64,000 nucleotides of DNA. Origin: a virus. The notes below the pieces were generated by a model, which saw nothing but the letters and a program-made list of their open reading frames with translations, was not told where the DNA came from and searched no databases. Below are positions 3,745 through 60,914 of this stretch, piece after piece. Positions within the stretch are counted from its first letter, which is position 1. Each line of letters begins with the position of its first letter. The DNA lies in IMG/VR virus record IMGVR_UViG_3300043399_000297, positions 124,001 through 188,000 of that record. The stretch is one strand, 5' to 3'. The translations under genes and the position numbers were made by a program.

Positions 3745-4001
3745 CCCCAATAAATTATGAATATATAGACGAACAACCAACTCCTCCTAGAAAGATTAAA
3801 AAGACAGTTCCTTCTAATGACGGTGGTTGGGAAGATAGAACTTTTATCCGTATTCCAGTCGGAGAACATAAAATAAGTGAATTAGAAATTTGGTGTAGAT
3901 CATATTACTATGAACCTCGTTATCTTGGTCCCTGGTTCAAAGTTTCTGGCTATATCATATTAGACGAAAAGACATATACGCATTGGAAGTTGTGTGAGTG
4001 A
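3720..4001 (+). CDS. Small early protein, member 4 of a tandem family
   Basis: A 93-aa protein overlapping the previous gene by 25 bases. A proline-rich N-terminus leads into the family pattern ELEIWCRSYYY and the tail GYIILDEKTYTHWKLCE, which matches member 1 (YIIDEKKYA) closely. The gene after it starts inside its last codons, so the whole block is probably translated by coupling. Function unknown. Confidence 0.6.
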   Translation: MVQPNLGLTPINYEYIDEQPTPPRKIKKTVPSNDGGWEDRTFIRIPVGEHKISELEIWCRSYYYEPRYLGPWFKVSGYIILDEKTYTHWKLCE

Positions 4002-4683
4002 TCTAACAACCGGTGAAGGTTACATATTCCTAGAGAATATTATACCACACGATCTTATTGATGGGATCAACAGTAAACTAGATACACTATATCCTGTTCG
4101 TGCATCCAGTGCAGGTAAGCAATATGCAGAAAAAGATGACATAAAGAATCTACCTGATATTAGCGTTTGGTGGAGTCAAATGACTATGGATTGGCCAGAA
4201 GTATATTTGATCAATGACTTCTTAATTACACAAGTAAGTAAGGAGTTAGATAACTCAGTTTGGTATGCTAGCGATATAGTCACGATTAACGGTGATAGTA
4301 AGTGGGTGAATCCACATGTGGATACCCCACATAGATTTGATCAATGGAATATGGATGATAGACTGTTAGGAGTGCAGTGCATCGTTTCATTGCAAGATAC
4401 TACTCCTGAAATGGGAGCAACTGGATTTGTACCAAACAGTCATATACCAGACTGGGACATTCATCTATGCTATAACGGTGCATATAACAAATATTTTTAT
4501 GATTTTTGTGAACAGAAACATATGCCGAAAGGTAGTGTATTGATGTATAACTGTAGATTGCTTCATAGTAGTATGCCAAATTATTTTCATGAACCTCGCC
4601 CAATGCTCTTGCTAAATTATCTAAACGGTGATATAGTAGAAGATGTGAAAAAGATAGATAATATTTGGAGTTCAAATGGCTAG
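3994..4683 (+). CDS. PhyH-type 2-oxoglutarate/Fe(II) dioxygenase
   Basis: This 229-aa protein carries the iron-binding triad of the phytanoyl-CoA dioxygenase group: H108-x-D110 in NPHVDTPHRFD and a distal H191 in CRLLHSS. R202 (PRPML) could bind the 2-oxoglutarate carboxylate. GATGFVPNSHIP is the usual strand-turn segment before the distal His. Such enzymes hydroxylate small molecules, bases or proteins; the substrate cannot be read from the sequence. Similar genes are common in aquatic T4-like phages. It starts at a GTG that overlaps the previous stop. Confidence 0.8.
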   Translation: MSDLTTGEGYIFLENIIPHDLIDGINSKLDTLYPVRASSAGKQYAEKDDIKNLPDISVWWSQMTMDWPEVYLINDFLITQVSKELDNSVWYASDIVTINGDSKWVNPHVDTPHRFDQWNMDDRLLGVQCIVSLQDTTPEMGATGFVPNSHIPDWDIHLCYNGAYNKYFYDFCEQKHMPKGSVLMYNCRLLHSSMPNYFHEPRPMLLLNYLNGDIVEDVKKIDNIWSSNG

Positions 4684-5233
4684 GCATTGTATGCTGGATA
4701 TGGAAACGCTTGACACTGCACCGTCAACTGTTATCCTCACGATTGGTGCAGTGATTTTTGATCCGCGCGGTATGGGAGTCACTGATACTCTTGATCTTCG
4801 CCCCACGATTGATGAACAGACCGACACATATGGTCGCACTATAAGTGACGCTACTATGCAATGGTGGAGCGGCCAGAGTCCAGAAGCGATTGAAGAAGCT
4901 ATGGGTGATCGTGATCGTATCCCATATCGTGACGCAATGGAAAAGCTTTATAAGTTCTGCTGGAACTGTGATAAGGTCTGGGCTAACGGGTCAATCTTTG
5001 ATATCGCAGTGGCAGAAAGTGCATTTCGTGATCTTGAAATGCAGATGCCCTGGCAGTTTTGGAACATTCGTGATTGTCGCACTATTTATGATCTTGCCGG
5101 TGTATCGTTGAAGGATGCAAAGTATCAGACTAAGACTACTCACAAGGCCGTAGAAGATGCTATACACCAGGCTATTGTTATTCAAGACGCATACAAGATT
5201 TTTATGAAGGCTGGATTGACTCATATCCGATGA
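4676..5233 (+). CDS. dexA: DexA-like 3'-5' exonuclease (DEDDh)
   Basis: This 185-aa protein is a DnaQ-fold exonuclease. The metal-binding set is complete: D8-x-E10 (LDMETLD), D109 (GSIFDIAV), H156 and D161 (THKAVEDA). The segments WWSGQSPEA and FWNIRDCRT match the WWKNQSPEA and FWNQRDIRT blocks of T4 DexA. T4 DexA degrades single-stranded DNA from the 3' end and takes part in host-DNA breakdown and recombination. The gene overlaps both neighbours and belongs to the early operon. Confidence 0.82.
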   Translation: MARHCMLDMETLDTAPSTVILTIGAVIFDPRGMGVTDTLDLRPTIDEQTDTYGRTISDATMQWWSGQSPEAIEEAMGDRDRIPYRDAMEKLYKFCWNCDKVWANGSIFDIAVAESAFRDLEMQMPWQFWNIRDCRTIYDLAGVSLKDAKYQTKTTHKAVEDAIHQAIVIQDAYKIFMKAGLTHIR

Positions 5234-5454
5234 ACACTGAAAAAGAAAATATTTGGCGAACACTGCAAGGGTTGAAGCCTATTCAGCCATTAAAGTGTCG
5301 TTTGGGGTGGCATCGTTGGACTAGCTTTGAAGTGACTGACGGTGATTATGGAATGGGATATGGAGCTGCTGCAAGATGTAATTGTGCGGATTGCGGATTA
5401 CCCAGAGTAGAATATCCCGTCAGATTATTAGGTCCTAAAAATAATGCAAATTGA
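5230..5454 (+). CDS. Small Cys-rich protein (DUF1660-like)
   Basis: A 74-aa protein whose core has the pattern C-x3-W-H-x-W (CRLGWHRW) followed by CNCADCG. This resembles small phage zinc proteins of the DUF1660 type, which contain C-x2-G-x-H and C-x2-C-G elements. Four Cys/His ligands could hold one zinc. It starts by ATGA overlap with the dexA-like gene. Function unknown; the family link is tentative. Confidence 0.6.
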   Translation: MNTEKENIWRTLQGLKPIQPLKCRLGWHRWTSFEVTDGDYGMGYGAAARCNCADCGLPRVEYPVRLLGPKNNAN

Positions 5455-6013
5455 TAGTGACATTGACATTGATGTTGGGAATCGTGATCAACTGTTATCA
5501 GTGATCAAGCATATTCCTGCCGCAATGCGCAAAGTCAATCCTATCCGCAAACATCCAAGTGGTATCTATATCACAGATATTCCCTATGATCCTATAAACG
5601 ATATGGCATCAATTGATTATGTTGAAGCCGAACAGAGAGGATATTTTAAACTAGACATTCTTAATGTCCACGTATATGAAAAAGTAAAGGACGAAGAACA
5701 TTTAGTTAGATTGATGGAAGAACCAGATTGGTCTATGCTCAATGACAAATCTATAGTTGAAAAACTAATACACCTTAATAATTCATTCTATGTTATTCAA
5801 AGAATGCCAGAGCCAATTAATAGTATCCCTAGACTTGCTATGTTTCTAGCAGTTATTCGTCCTGCTAAAAAGCATCTGCAAGGGTTATCTTGGAAAGAAG
5901 TTGCTAAAACTGTGTGGGATAGAGATGTAGACGGGTACAGCTTCCGAAAGTCTCACGCAATAGCTTATGCCCAATTAGTTGTTGTTCATATGAATTTATT
6001 GAGGGGAGTATAA
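5444..6013 (+). CDS. DnaE-like (PolIII alpha) catalytic palm fragment, C-terminal half
   Basis: A 189-aa protein that reads like a stripped-down DNA polymerase III alpha palm. It opens with SDIDIDVGNRDQ (D6, D8), equivalent to the PDIDIDF block that holds the first two catalytic aspartates of DnaE. Then come RKHPSG (like the KHAGG block), YFKLDIL with D71 (like KFDFLGL, the third catalytic aspartate), and YSFRKSHAIAY (like FNKSHSAAYA in the fingers). The motif order is that of DnaE, but the PHP domain, the N-terminal half of the palm and the tau/beta-binding tail are absent. The missing N-terminal motif occurs in the separate gene at 58290. Whether it polymerises is unknown; a replicative family B polymerase would be expected elsewhere in this phage. 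Confidence 0.7.
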   Translation: MQIDSDIDIDVGNRDQLLSVIKHIPAAMRKVNPIRKHPSGIYITDIPYDPINDMASIDYVEAEQRGYFKLDILNVHVYEKVKDEEHLVRLMEEPDWSMLNDKSIVEKLIHLNNSFYVIQRMPEPINSIPRLAMFLAVIRPAKKHLQGLSWKEVAKTVWDRDVDGYSFRKSHAIAYAQLVVVHMNLLRGV

Positions 6014-7076: not shown

Positions 7077-7145
7077 TAGACTTTTTAAAGTTTGTTTTCG
7101 TTGTTGTCTATATAGTTACAATAGAAGTTTATGATAGGATATTTA

Positions 7146-7664
7146 ATGCAGATAAAGTTGTTAGAAGAAGGAAACGAATTACTGACTAATGCCTGTGAAG
7201 AATGGGACTTTGAGAAAGACGGTGATCCTACCGAGTTAGTCAAAGATTTGTTCACCGCGTTAGTTGAGTATGGCGGTGTTGGGCTTGCTGCCCCGCAATG
7301 TGGAATTATGAAGAACATCTTTGTAATGGGCAACTTCCAGAAATTGACAGCCTGCATTAATCCTGTTGTAGTTGAAACGAGTGATAATGCAATAGTTGAT
7401 GTAGAAGGATGCTTGAGCTTTCCGGGACTATGGCTTAAGGTAAAAAGACCTACTAGTGTAACAGTGCAATATCAGAATATTGAGGGCAAGACTGTTCAGG
7501 AAGAACTAGATGGACTTGCTGCAAGGGTGTTCTTGCACGAATTTGATCACTTGTTTGGCATTACATTTGATAACAGGGTAGGGGAATTAAGTTTGAAGAT
7601 GGCTAGAGAAAAGAGAAAGAAGTCAATAAAGAAACTATCTAGGGCATCCGCTTCACAAGCGTAA
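7146..7664 (+). CDS. def: Peptide deformylase
   Basis: The three deformylase motifs are intact: GVGLAAPQ (residues 44-51), EGCLS with metal ligand C89, and HEFDH with H131 and H135 as metal ligands and E132 as catalyst. At 172 aa it has usual length. The enzyme removes the N-formyl group from nascent proteins; phage copies are common in aquatic myoviruses and are thought to support translation during infection. I choose the ATG at 7146 (AGGAT upstream) over one at 7131. Its 3' end overlaps the convergent gene by 26 bases. Confidence 0.92.
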   Translation: MQIKLLEEGNELLTNACEEWDFEKDGDPTELVKDLFTALVEYGGVGLAAPQCGIMKNIFVMGNFQKLTACINPVVVETSDNAIVDVEGCLSFPGLWLKVKRPTSVTVQYQNIEGKTVQEELDGLAARVFLHEFDHLFGITFDNRVGELSLKMAREKRKKSIKKLSRASASQA

Positions 7665-8907: not shown

Positions 8908-9885
8908 GTGTTTGATATATTAACCATTGTTCCTGGTAAAAAGAAGACAACTGGCAAGGGCTGGGTAAGCTTTAATGCACCTTGTTGCCACAATAGGGGA
9001 CATAGGCCAGACAAAAGAAGTCGCGGCGGCATCAAATTTGATGGTGATACTAATTGGTCATATCACTGCTTTAACTGTGATTTCAAATGCGGATTCATTT
9101 TGGGAAACACTTTTAGTAAGAACTTGAAGATGTTTTTGTCTTGGTGCGGAGTACCAGACGAGCAGATTACTAAATGGAACTTTGAGAGTCTACAACAAAA
9201 AGACTTAATTGAATATATCAAAGTAAAGAAACAGAAATCAAAGGTAAAATTTAAAGAAACTAAACTTCCTGAAGATGCTATACTCATTGATGAGAATAAC
9301 ATAGATCATAAAAAGTATGCAGACTATATTAAAAGTCGCGGATTATCAGTCAATGACTATCCCTTTATGATCACGCCAGATGAAGAGGGTAGAAACAGTA
9401 ATAGAATTGTCATACCCTATACATTTGAGGGCAAAATCGTAGGTCATATTAGTAGATATCTTGACAATCGTATTCCTAAGTATATTAAAGAGCAGCAAGT
9501 AGGATATGTGTTTGGATATGATTTACAGAAACCTGAATATGAAGTATGCGTTGTGGTCGAGGGTATATTTGATGCGCTGAGTATCAATGCGTGTGCATTA
9601 ACTCACGATACTATAAGCGACGAACAGGCAGAAATACTAAGAAAGCTTAATAAAAAGATAATAGTAGTGCCTGACTTAGATAAGTCCGGAATGACAATAT
9701 GTGATAGAGCAATTGAATTGGGATTTTATGTATCTATTCCTAATTGGGACGATGACATAAAGGATACCAATGATGCTATATTAAAGTATGGCAGAGTCCC
9801 TACATTACTAAGTATCTTACAGTCAGCAACTAATAGTAAGATTAAGATAGAATTACAGAGGAAGAAAATTGCTAAAAGAATATAA
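8908..9885 (+). CDS. 61: DNA primase (gp61-like)
   Basis: A 325-aa primase, similar in length to T4 gp61 (342 aa). The N-terminal zinc domain has CCH at 26-28, H32, C54, C57 and C61. The TOPRIM domain shows the catalytic Glu in VVVEGIFDALS (E218) and the acidic pair in VPDLDKSG (D256, D258). It makes RNA primers for the lagging strand and works with the gp41 helicase encoded directly downstream. The GTG at 8908 sits at the predicted transcription start of P3, with no ribosome binding site. Its end overlaps the helicase gene by 17 bases. Confidence 0.9.
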   Translation: MFDILTIVPGKKKTTGKGWVSFNAPCCHNRGHRPDKRSRGGIKFDGDTNWSYHCFNCDFKCGFILGNTFSKNLKMFLSWCGVPDEQITKWNFESLQQKDLIEYIKVKKQKSKVKFKETKLPEDAILIDENNIDHKKYADYIKSRGLSVNDYPFMITPDEEGRNSNRIVIPYTFEGKIVGHISRYLDNRIPKYIKEQQVGYVFGYDLQKPEYEVCVVVEGIFDALSINACALTHDTISDEQAEILRKLNKKIIVVPDLDKSGMTICDRAIELGFYVSIPNWDDDIKDTNDAILKYGRVPTLLSILQSATNSKIKIELQRKKIAKRI

Positions 9886-11281
9886 CACCGACGTTCAAGA
9901 ACTATTTTTAAGAATGATGGTAACTAACGCAGAGTTGTATACTCGCGTTATGAACATTATGAATCCTCAGAACTTTGATCGTAGACTTAGGCCGGTTGCT
10001 GAATTCTTAGTTGATCATACTAACAAGTATAGTATTATGCCTGATCCAACGCAGATTAAGGCTACTACAAGCGAAACTATTGAAGCAATACCTGACTTAA
10101 CTGAGGGGCATTATGAGTGGTTCTTGGAAGAGTTTGAAGCGTTCACTAAACGCCAAGAACTTGAAAGAGCTATTCTTAAGGCAGCAGACTTGCTTGAGAA
10201 GGGTGAGTTTGATCCTGTTGAAAAACTAGTTAAAGATGCTGTTCAGATTAGCTTGATGCGTGATATGGGCACAGACTATTTTGCTGATCCTAAGCAACGA
10301 CTAGACAAATACTTTAATCAGGGTGGTCAGGTATCTACAGGCTGGCCTCAGCTTGATAGAGTTATGTATGGCGGAATGAGTCGCGGTGAGTTGAATATCT
10401 TTGCAGGTGGTTCAGGTTCTGGTAAAAGTCTCGTGATGATGAACATCGCATTGAATTGGTTAGAGCGCGGACTAAGTGGCGTTTATATCACATTAGAACT
10501 TAGTGAAGAACTTACTTCACTTAGAACCGATGCTATGCTTACAAGTATGAGCACCAAAGATATTCGTAAGAACCTAGATGATTCTGCATTGCGTGTCAAG
10601 ATGGCAGGTAGAAAGATGGGTACTTATCGTGTTAAGAAATTGCCCGCTCAAAGCAATGTCAATGCTATCAGAGCATATATCAAAGAAGTTCAAATTCAGA
10701 CTGGGATCAAGATCGACTTTGTTATGGTTGACTATCTTGATCTTGTTATGCCTGTGTCAGTCAAGGTCAATCCCAACGATCAGTTCATTAAAGACAAGTA
10801 TGTTTCGGAAGAACTTCGCAATCTTGCAGAAGAACTTAATGTATTGTTCATCACTGCTAGTCAGTTGAACCGTAGTGCAGTTGAAGAAATTGAGTTTGAT
10901 CATAGTCATATTGCAGGCGGTATCTCAAAGATCAATACTGCTGACTATGTGTTTGGTATCTTTACTTCACGATCTATGAAGGAGCGCGGCAAATATCAGA
11001 TTCAATGTATGAAAAGTCGTAGTTCTACTGGTGTGGGACAAAAGATTGACCTAGAATATAATATCGAAACTATGCGTATTACTGATGAGGACCCAGAAGA
11101 GGGAAGAACACATACCCAAACACCTAGTCAACTTATGAGTCAAATACGGCCCGGGCCGGGAGGAATTGTTTCGCCGGGCTCGAATGGCCCGGCTGCAACA
11201 ATAGAAAATACACCTAAGATAAATGCAAATGTGGATGGAGCTAAACTAAAATCATTGTTGAATTCTCTCAAGAAAACTTAA
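9869..11281 (+). CDS. 41: Replicative DNA helicase (gp41-like, DnaB family)
   Basis: A 470-aa hexameric-helicase protein. A helical N-terminal domain precedes the RecA-like core with Walker A GGSGSGKS (180-187), Walker B FVMVDYLDL (about 290-298) and the sensor-like segment FITASQLNR. It unwinds the fork ahead of the polymerase and pairs with the primase upstream. The start is a TTG behind AGAGGAAG. The C-terminal tail (after about residue 415) is low complexity and includes a GC-rich palindromic stretch encoding PGPGGIVSPGSNGPAA, unlike the rest of the gene. Confidence 0.92.
   Translation: MLKEYNTDVQELFLRMMVTNAELYTRVMNIMNPQNFDRRLRPVAEFLVDHTNKYSIMPDPTQIKATTSETIEAIPDLTEGHYEWFLEEFEAFTKRQELERAILKAADLLEKGEFDPVEKLVKDAVQISLMRDMGTDYFADPKQRLDKYFNQGGQVSTGWPQLDRVMYGGMSRGELNIFAGGSGSGKSLVMMNIALNWLERGLSGVYITLELSEELTSLRTDAMLTSMSTKDIRKNLDDSALRVKMAGRKMGTYRVKKLPAQSNVNAIRAYIKEVQIQTGIKIDFVMVDYLDLVMPVSVKVNPNDQFIKDKYVSEELRNLAEELNVLFITASQLNRSAVEEIEFDHSHIAGGISKINTADYVFGIFTSRSMKERGKYQIQCMKSRSSTGVGQKIDLEYNIETMRITDEDPEEGRTHTQTPSQLMSQIRPGPGGIVSPGSNGPAATIENTPKINANVDGAKLKSLLNSLKKT
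11148..11193 (+). repeat. GC-rich double palindrome inside the helicase gene
   Basis: GGCCCGGGCC (11148-11157) is a perfect palindrome. It is followed by the 7-bp hairpin GCCGGGC (11173-11179) / GCCCGGC (11187-11193). The block is in frame, lies in the unstructured C-terminal tail, and contrasts with the AT-rich surroundings. Confidence 0.6.
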
Positions 11282-58254: not shown

Positions 58255-58283
58255 TTGACATTATGTTAAGTTAGTGCTATCTT
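58255..58283 (+). promoter_or_regulatory. Early promoter P11 (leaderless)
   Basis: TTGACA (58255-58260), 17-nt spacer ending TGC (extended -10), TATCTT (58278-58283); six bases to the ATG at 58290. Confidence 0.75.
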
Positions 58284-58289
58284 GACACT

Positions 58290-58796
58290 ATGGAAAGAGA
58301 CAAGTTCGGCCAAATCATATATAATGAGAATGACTTAATAGACTTGTATCTATCCAATCCTGACATTAGCTTAAATAACGTTATCGTAAATAAAAAAATA
58401 GTATTCAATAATGAATTGTCACTAGAAAATATACCGGAACTGATTGACTACCTGGTTAGTGATAGTAGCATTGAAGATTTTGATAAAGAATGTCAGAACA
58501 ATTGGTTTCTTCCTGACGAATACAAAACTTTTGATATTGCACAGTTTGTATTAGATCAATGCACTAATCAGGAAGAACTACAACGTGCTGGTGAAGAGTT
58601 ATTGCTTTACCAAGAACGTGATATGTTTATGTTACTTAGATATCTAAAATACTTTGTAGATACGATGAGGAAACATAAAATAGTATGGGGAGTTGGGAGA
58701 GGCTCTAGCGTTAGTAGTTTTGTATTGTTTTTAATTGGTGTCCATAAGATTAATTCATTATACTATGACCTTTCTGTTGATGAGTTTTTAAAGTAA
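58290..58796 (+). CDS. DnaE-like (PolIII alpha) palm fragment, N-terminal half
   Basis: A 168-aa protein. Its last 60 residues (LLRYLKYFVDTMRKHKIVWG, then GVGRGSSVSSFVLFLIGVHK and INSLYYDLSVDEFLK) align by eye with the DnaE segment that carries PGRGSAAGSLV...ITDIDPL-x-Y-x-LLFERFL. In DnaE, the catalytic PDIDIDF block follows a few residues later; here the protein stops instead. That block opens the separate protein at 5444. Residues 1-60 match nothing I recognise. It has its own strong leaderless early promoter. Confidence 0.7.
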   Translation: MERDKFGQIIYNENDLIDLYLSNPDISLNNVIVNKKIVFNNELSLENIPELIDYLVSDSSIEDFDKECQNNWFLPDEYKTFDIAQFVLDQCTNQEELQRAGEELLLYQERDMFMLLRYLKYFVDTMRKHKIVWGVGRGSSVSSFVLFLIGVHKINSLYYDLSVDEFLK

Positions 58797-59315: not shown

Positions 59316-59684
59316 ATGGCAAATCAAATACACATTACAAAGCACAAGATTGAGAAGATTACTCCACTAAAGGATACTATTTTAGTTCACGGAATGGAGT
59401 TTAAAGAGCGTCTAAGTAGGGGTGGAATCATTCTTATGGACGACGATATGAAAAGCCAAGGCATTCGGCCAAGATGGGCGCAGGTCTACGCTGTTGGTCC
59501 GGATGTTACAGATATTAAAGTAGATGATTATATTATGATAGCACACGGTCGCTGGAGTCGTGGGATAGCAATTGAAGACGAAGACGGCGAGAAAACGATC
59601 CGTAAAGTAGATCCAAATGACATTTTATTAATTAGTGATGAACCAGTAGAAGATTATACAATGAGTGATAAGGTTATTGCTTAA
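59316..59684 (+). CDS. groES: GroES-like co-chaperonin (gp31 analogue)
   Basis: A 122-aa protein with the GroES fold pattern: PLKDTILVHGMEF at the start of the barrel, GGIILMDDD leading to the mobile-loop region, VYAVGPDVTDIKVDDYIMI (V-G-x-G-like turn) and a C-terminal DILLISDE strand. T4 encodes gp31 for folding of the capsid protein; aquatic T4-like phages often carry a GroES-like gene in its place. Its late co-transcription with the previous gene fits a capsid-folding role. Its stop codon is inside the 5' arm of a large inverted repeat. Confidence 0.82.
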   Translation: MANQIHITKHKIEKITPLKDTILVHGMEFKERLSRGGIILMDDDMKSQGIRPRWAQVYAVGPDVTDIKVDDYIMIAHGRWSRGIAIEDEDGEKTIRKVDPNDILLISDEPVEDYTMSDKVIA

Positions 59685-59990: not shown

Positions 59991-60914
59991 GTGAAGAATC
60001 GGTTGTGGGTTGAGAAATATCGCCCATCTAAAATAGATGATTATGTGTTTGTTGACGATAGACAAAAGAACACAGTTGAGCAGTGGATCAAAGACGAGTC
60101 TATTCCCCATCTATTGCTTTCAGGCGATCCCGGCACAGGTAAAACTACATTAGCTAAGGTTCTTATCAATGAACTTAATGTAGAAGACTTTGACGTTCTA
60201 GAAATCAATGCTAGTAGAGAAAATGGCATTGACAACCTTAGAGAAAAAATCAATGGCTTTGTGCAGACTATGCCTTTCGGCAAGTTCAAGGTTGTTTTGT
60301 TAGACGAAGCTGACTATCTTACTCAGCCAGCACAGGCAGCATTGCGTAATGATATGGAAGCATATCACGAAACAGTCAGATACATTTTAACTTGTAACTA
60401 TCAGCACAAAATTATTCCTGCGTTGAAAAGTCGTTGTCACGAATTCCATATCGCAAAGCCCGATATCACGGAATACACAACTCGTGCCGCTACTGTTCTT
60501 ATAAACGAAAACATTGAGTTTGATCTAGATGACCTTGACACATATGTTCGTGCCTGTTATCCCGATCTAAGAAAGTGTTTGAATCAGTTACAGCAGAATA
60601 GCATCACTGGTTCTCTTGCCAAGCCACAGTCAACTGGTAGTGGCGAAGATGAACTATTGGTCGCTGCTACAGAATTGTTCAAGAGTGGTAAGATTCTTGA
60701 AGGTCGTCAGCAATTGTTACAATATATCAGTCTATATCCAACTCGGGTAGAAGATGTGGTAAGATGGGCATATGACAATCTTGATCTTTGGGGTAAGACT
60801 CAAGAGAGCAAAGATGCTTCAATTGTGATCATTCGCAATACGTTAGCAAACCTGCCCTTAGTAGGGATACCTGAAATAAGCATTGCGGCCATGATGGTTG
60901 AATTATGTAGCTAA
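59991..60914 (+). CDS. 44: Clamp loader large subunit (gp44-like, AAA+)
   Basis: A 307-aa AAA+ protein, like T4 gp44 (319 aa): Walker A GDPGTGKT (45-52), Walker B LLDEAD (103-108), sensor 1 TCN and the SRC arginine-finger motif (147-149). It loads the gp45 sliding clamp with gp62. The start is a GTG ten bases after AAGGA. Its partner gp62 lies at the other end of the window, not next door. The last 12 bases overlap the convergent GIY-YIG gene. Confidence 0.93.

Follow-up and report, generated by a model that had tools for sequence, protein, structure and literature searches.

To our knowledge, every bacterial C-family replicase examined to date is one polypeptide of roughly a thousand residues. 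A split, minimal form of the alpha subunit of DNA polymerase III (Pol III) was described from sequence in the group 2.2 jumbo phages, among which Atu_ph07 is named (Iyer et al., 2021; Viruses 13:63, PMC7824862), and no experimental follow-up of this split polymerase was found in the literature searched. The present work concerns two genes carried by a 64,000-nucleotide stretch of viral DNA, hereafter the window, which spans bases 124001-188000 of the 244-kb IMG/VR record IMGVR_UViG_3300043399_000297. Their products correspond to two halves, N-terminal (N-half) and C-terminal (C-half), of such a polymerase. As in the group 2.2 phages, the nucleoside triphosphate-binding and metal-binding parts are found on two separate proteins encoded far apart, and are accompanied by a family-B polymerase and T4-type replisome genes. 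There is no essential difference between the two systems: the window pair is a member of the family already described by Iyer et al. (2021), rediscovered here and extended by a further lineage. What is new is the residue-level mapping, the constancy of the split site, the co-occurrence of the halves, their fixed synteny, their occurrence in a 141-kb non-jumbo phage and the promoter architecture.

The N-half gene (58290..58796, + strand; 168 amino acids) encodes the GRGS, or nucleotide-binding, half of the C-family (Pol III alpha) palm, while the C-half gene (5444..6013, + strand; 189 amino acids) encodes the metal-binding palm half plus the FxKSHAxAYA helix. Both frames are intact. That of the N-half holds KIVWGVGRGSSVSSFVLFL and its last residues before the stop are INSLYYDLSVDEFLK, in agreement with an earlier note on this DNA; translation stops as soon as the palm helix is complete (FLK-stop), just short of the catalytic aspartates. 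The C-half opens with MQIDSDIDIDV, in line with the claim of that note that the break precedes the catalytic aspartates and that the 5444 protein starts on them. The total of 357 residues and the spacing of about 52 kb, both given in the same note, are correct.

Homology of the two proteins to parts of one C-family palm is well shown at the sequence level. The single Pfam domain of the N-half is PF07733 (DNA_pol3_alpha, the NTPase domain of Pol III alpha; E = 1.4e-8, 35.1 bits against a cut-off of 23.9), and this half also matches PHROG 11127, labeled DNA polymerase (9e-41). The window C-half, in which Pfam domains number zero, matches PHROG 11778, likewise labeled DNA polymerase (5e-58), and more weakly full-length phage DnaE families (4e-5 and 1e-4). 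Proteins of PA5oct, 121Q and Atu_ph07 are about 40-49% identical to the window halves over the matched stretch. As aligning the full C-half by profile against four bacterial DnaE sequences succeeded only partly, a colinear MAFFT alignment of the halves with these four proteins was used instead. In this alignment, both halves together are colinear with Escherichia coli DnaE from residue 361 to about residue 760, and the motifs follow one another (E. coli numbering) as GRGS (361), IxxLxYDLxxxEFL (377-392), DIDID (401-405), KHxxGV (about 510), GYFKLDxLN (GLVKFDFLG, 550-558), IRP (FRP, about 638) and FxKSHAxAYA (756-765). GRGS, D401/D403/D555, K553 and FNKSHSAAYA are thus shared, in the same order, with the enzymes of E. 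coli, T. thermophilus and M. tuberculosis.

The catalytic residues are strictly kept. GRGS (N-half residues 136-139; 58695..58706, + strand) is the equivalent of E. coli DnaE 361-364, is invariant in the alignment, and its residues are invariant in 42 diverse N-halves. On the same strand, DIDID (C-half residues 6-10; 5459..5473) corresponds to E. coli D401/D403/D405, with all three aspartates invariant; KLD (residues 69-71; 5648..5656) to K553 and the third catalytic aspartate D555, with K69 and D71 invariant; and FRKSHAIAYA (residues 167-176; 5942..5971) to FNKSHSAAYA (756-765), with H171 and Y175 invariant. Across 35 diverse C-halves, D6, D8, D71, K69, H37 and H171 do not vary. This invariance of the three catalytic aspartates and of GRGS in diverse members makes it very improbable that the pair serves the replisome as structural or regulatory subunits devoid of catalysis, a role which could otherwise suit proteins so minimal and split, given the general knowledge that many polymerase-like accessory subunits are inactive.

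Predicted structures point in the same direction. AlphaFold models were built for each half alone, with a mean predicted local distance difference test score (pLDDT) of 85 and 83. In unguided searches of the PDB, Pol III alpha/DnaE was found at ranks 1, 2 and 5 with the N-half model, and at ranks 1-4 with the C-half model. Against the viral library BFVD, the named hits of the C-half model in ranks 1-13 all bear the name of a DNA polymerase, in several cases Pol III alpha/DnaE. The earlier note had left room for a family other than DnaE giving a better match to the GRGSS region; none better than DnaE/Pol III alpha emerged from the profile and unguided structure searches.

The place of the split is itself conserved. 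Judged from frame ends, it is constant within a few residues in 80 of 80 retrieved N-half loci, and, on the other side of the break, the C-half begins with SDIDID or a few residues ahead of it. An intein-split DnaE of the cyanobacterial type is ruled out, as no intein sequence is present at the break, and a fused single gene was found neither among the retrieved N-half loci, where open reading frame ends were checked, nor among the C-half loci. The split-polymerase family is abundant, with at least 587 N-half and at least 592 C-half copies in IMG/VR viral contigs. Both halves were present in 13 of 22 large viral records, and in eight of the nine records above 240 kb. In the ninth (G007), the gp41 helicase gene lies 3.9 kb from the contig end and the position of the C-half would be just past it. 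Records with the C-half only have no gp44 clamp loader gene, and the other records with the N-half only have no gp41 gene; since the neighbor genes of the missing half are also absent or cut, contig truncation explains every one-half record. Among isolates, N-half and C-half tallies are equal for phages of Escherichia (34/34), Pseudomonas (11/11), Salmonella (8/8) and Erwinia (8/8). Those of Klebsiella gave 11 C-halves and 10 N-halves, the gap being likely due to one 109-kb unverified record. Every complete isolate tested carries both halves, and the two genes do not occur independently of each other across phages; the earlier note had named consistent co-occurrence as strong support. The well-studied phages 121Q, RaK2 and PA5oct belong to the family. 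Alishewanella phage Slicko01 (141 kb, non-jumbo), the most divergent isolate, also has both halves, its N-half being detected by profile only. Both genes are under strong purifying selection, with median ratios of nonsynonymous to synonymous substitution rates (dN/dS) of 0.08 and 0.06, which are rough values because the median dS is near 1.

The two genes could also be unrelated or act separately, with an accidental likeness to DnaE. The distances involved, 52 kb here and roughly 15-50 kb or more in other phages, are what would favor such a view, but strict co-occurrence, a fixed and complementary split point, and top structural relatives common to each half leave it hardly credible. The proposal of a split, minimal C-family polymerase made in the earlier note is supported by the homology, colinearity, catalytic motifs and co-occurrence. 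A cellular origin of the halves was considered and rejected: in 85,462 cellular genomes, the C-half was found on six contigs only, all in metagenome-assembled genomes, at least two of which also hold an N-half-like stretch, as would fit co-binned phage DNA. Both halves are essentially phage-specific. Public labels are inconsistent. RefSeq names both halves DNA polymerase in 121Q, GAP32 and K64-1, and depositors often use hypothetical or membrane protein, as for the C-halves of Atu_ph07 (L327:5001-5561) and Slicko01 (L292). The annotated start of the Atu_ph07 C-half is about 20 codons too late, which cuts off the catalytic DIDID.

Compared with the single chain of about 1,160 residues of bacterial DnaE, the phage pair, 357 residues in two chains, has lost much. 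In the DnaE alignment, the halves lack the PHP domain, all C-terminal domains and the greater part of both the fingers and the thumb, the latter lying between DxD and the HxxG motif, and the helix-hairpin-helix, clamp-binding, OB and tau-binding parts of the full-length enzyme are absent. PF17657 (DNA_pol3_finger), which represents another domain of Pol III, passes the cut-off in the C-halves of XacN1 and CM1 and has no match above cut-off in the window genome. The possibility that the fingers form a third, separate protein was rejected, as PF17657 was found only within the C-half, except for a separate single-chain polymerase in one viral contig (G011). Compact single-chain DnaE-like polymerases of this kind, including the actinophage proteins named DnaE-like DNA polymerase III alpha, are likewise phage-encoded, small, C-family and without most accessory domains, but they still have both thumb and fingers (PF07733 and PF17657, matched over the greater part of their range) and form a lineage separate from the split pair. 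The one in G011 (L320:775-2454) has 559 residues, includes fingers, and is encoded on a 151-kb contig that also holds both halves; its closest relative among the matches listed is 37.6% identical and is encoded by a 484-kb uncultured phage.

With thumb and fingers missing, the composite site might have lost templated synthesis and instead perform non-templated or RNA-directed nucleotidyl transfer, such as RNA end-tailing or a reaction on small nucleotides; the nucleotidyltransferase fold is indeed often reused for such reactions (PMC11646218). We consider this quite unlikely, since the FxKSHAxAYA helix, the K553/D555 equivalents and their Pol III-specific context are kept, and the neighborhood is one of DNA replication.

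This neighborhood is conserved around both genes. Downstream of the N-half come a small gene, a GroES/gp31-like co-chaperonin (59316..59684, + strand) and a gp44-like clamp loader (59991..60914, + strand). In 121Q and PA5oct, the genes after the C-half are, in turn, a small convergent one, one of structural type, the primase and the gp41 helicase, and the order from C-half to gp41 recurs, with minor changes or under other annotation, in Phosso, SCTP-2, Vibrio 2.275.O, Atu_ph07 and Slicko01. The window keeps the order of C-half, Toprim DNA primase of the T4 gp61-like type (8908..9885, + strand) and gp41/DnaB-like replicative helicase (9869..11281, + strand), with extra genes in between. A family-B polymerase is encoded in the same record (PF00136 match at G000:209353). 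The T4-type replisome context claimed in the earlier note is supported by the neighboring primase, gp41 and gp44 genes. The presence of the Toprim primase led us to reject the argument that the phage has no primase and that the pair must therefore prime.

Directly upstream of the C-half stands a DexA/Rv2179c-type 3'-5' exonuclease gene (4676..5233, + strand), which precedes the C-half in 102 of 120 close-relative loci, often with a stop/start overlap. As a universal, epsilon-like partner, this exonuclease was rejected, being distant or absent in 121Q, PA5oct, XacN1, G008 and G009; in the lineage of the window alone, it might serve as a proofreading partner. The same linkage may be read as a sign of repair, the pair being an active heterodimer that would fill gaps in base-excision or translesion repair instead of working at primers. 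Such a role was also suggested by Iyer et al. (2021), and it is general knowledge that small palm-type polymerases without processivity domains (Pol beta-like fold) are typically gap fillers. Nevertheless, distant relatives do not show this link to the exonuclease, and the conserved neighbors are primase, helicase and clamp loader, not repair genes. Repair is therefore unlikely in our view, while standing first among the rivals, ahead of non-templated transfer and, last, a non-catalytic role.

We favor, as probable, the view that the halves are complementary parts of one minimal C-family core, which would extend primers or fill gaps early and then leave synthesis to the family-B replicase. From a mechanistic point of view, we infer that the two proteins bind each other and are active together. 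The N-half and the C-half would form one active site at their interface, with the GRGS loop of the former holding the triphosphate of the nucleotide to be added and the aspartate triad of the latter coordinating two metal ions. Early in infection, the pair would add a short stretch to the RNA primers of the phage primase, fill short gaps, or both, before bulk synthesis is taken over by the family-B replicase. Having lost the thumb and most of the fingers, the pair is expected to be poorly processive alone and to work inside the T4-type replisome. A comparable division of labor is known in Bacillus subtilis, where DnaE extends the RNA primer and then hands off to PolC (PMC5627055). A primer hand-off role modeled on this example is the most likely one by analogy, and the analogy is limited to this way of working, since the phage has a family-B enzyme as its main replicase and its pair is much smaller than B. 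subtilis DnaE. Going further, a Pol III core in two chains, with no thumb and almost no fingers, might act as a Pol-alpha-like primer extender in a family-B, T4-type replisome, which would combine a bacterial-type initiator with an archaeal/eukaryotic-type replicase; we put this forward tentatively, as a doubtful extension.

Several observations weigh against this polymerase role. The pair has neither the thumb nor YQEQVM and RRAMGKKK, two elements of the fingers that the bacterial enzymes conserve, so that DNA polymerisation is not guaranteed. Structural E-values were weak, 0.1-0.3 in the PDB and 6e-3 in BFVD; the agreement of two independently modeled halves on Pol III alpha is nonetheless a strong point, despite the modest value of each single match. 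Finally, the gene neighborhood suggests a replisome and not a specific step within it. If 357 residues in two chains do suffice, the minimal chemistry behind bacterial replication can be tested directly, and an ancestral stage becomes plausible.

Expression of the N-half is predicted to follow a particular pattern. A predicted sigma70-type promoter (TTGACA-17-TATCTT; 58255..58283, + strand) ends its -10 box 6 nucleotides before the ATG, with no Shine-Dalgarno sequence. Because such a promoter would start transcription at or beside the A of the ATG, a leaderless N-half mRNA is predicted. The best promoter stands at exactly this distance in 72 of 115 distinct N-half relatives; a score of at least 9/12 at 5-9 nucleotides was reached by 70% of the 115, against 3% of shuffles and 0% of C-halves, and just three of the 115 have a Shine-Dalgarno-like sequence. 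In line with this, the early expression proposed in the earlier note is suggested by the conserved, predicted sigma70 promoter. Within the window, a sigma70 -10 box ends 5-6 nucleotides upstream of the start codon at + strand starts 336, 3066, 8908, 16591, 31747 and 58290. The genes concerned are the primase, an exonuclease (PHROG 298), a deoxynucleoside monophosphate kinase, the N-half and two of unknown function. This leaderless-type promoter is often kept in primase relatives, and the shared promoter class supports a link of the N-half to the primase. It was not seen in 121Q, PA5oct, Slicko01, XacN1 and CM1.

Two further genes of the window lie close to the C-half. A phage peptide deformylase gene is located at 7131-7664, between the C-half and the primase. 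A gene for a PhyH-type (phytanoyl-CoA dioxygenase-like) oxygenase is found at 3994-4683, just upstream of the exonuclease and the C-half, with homologues in 45 of the fetched loci.
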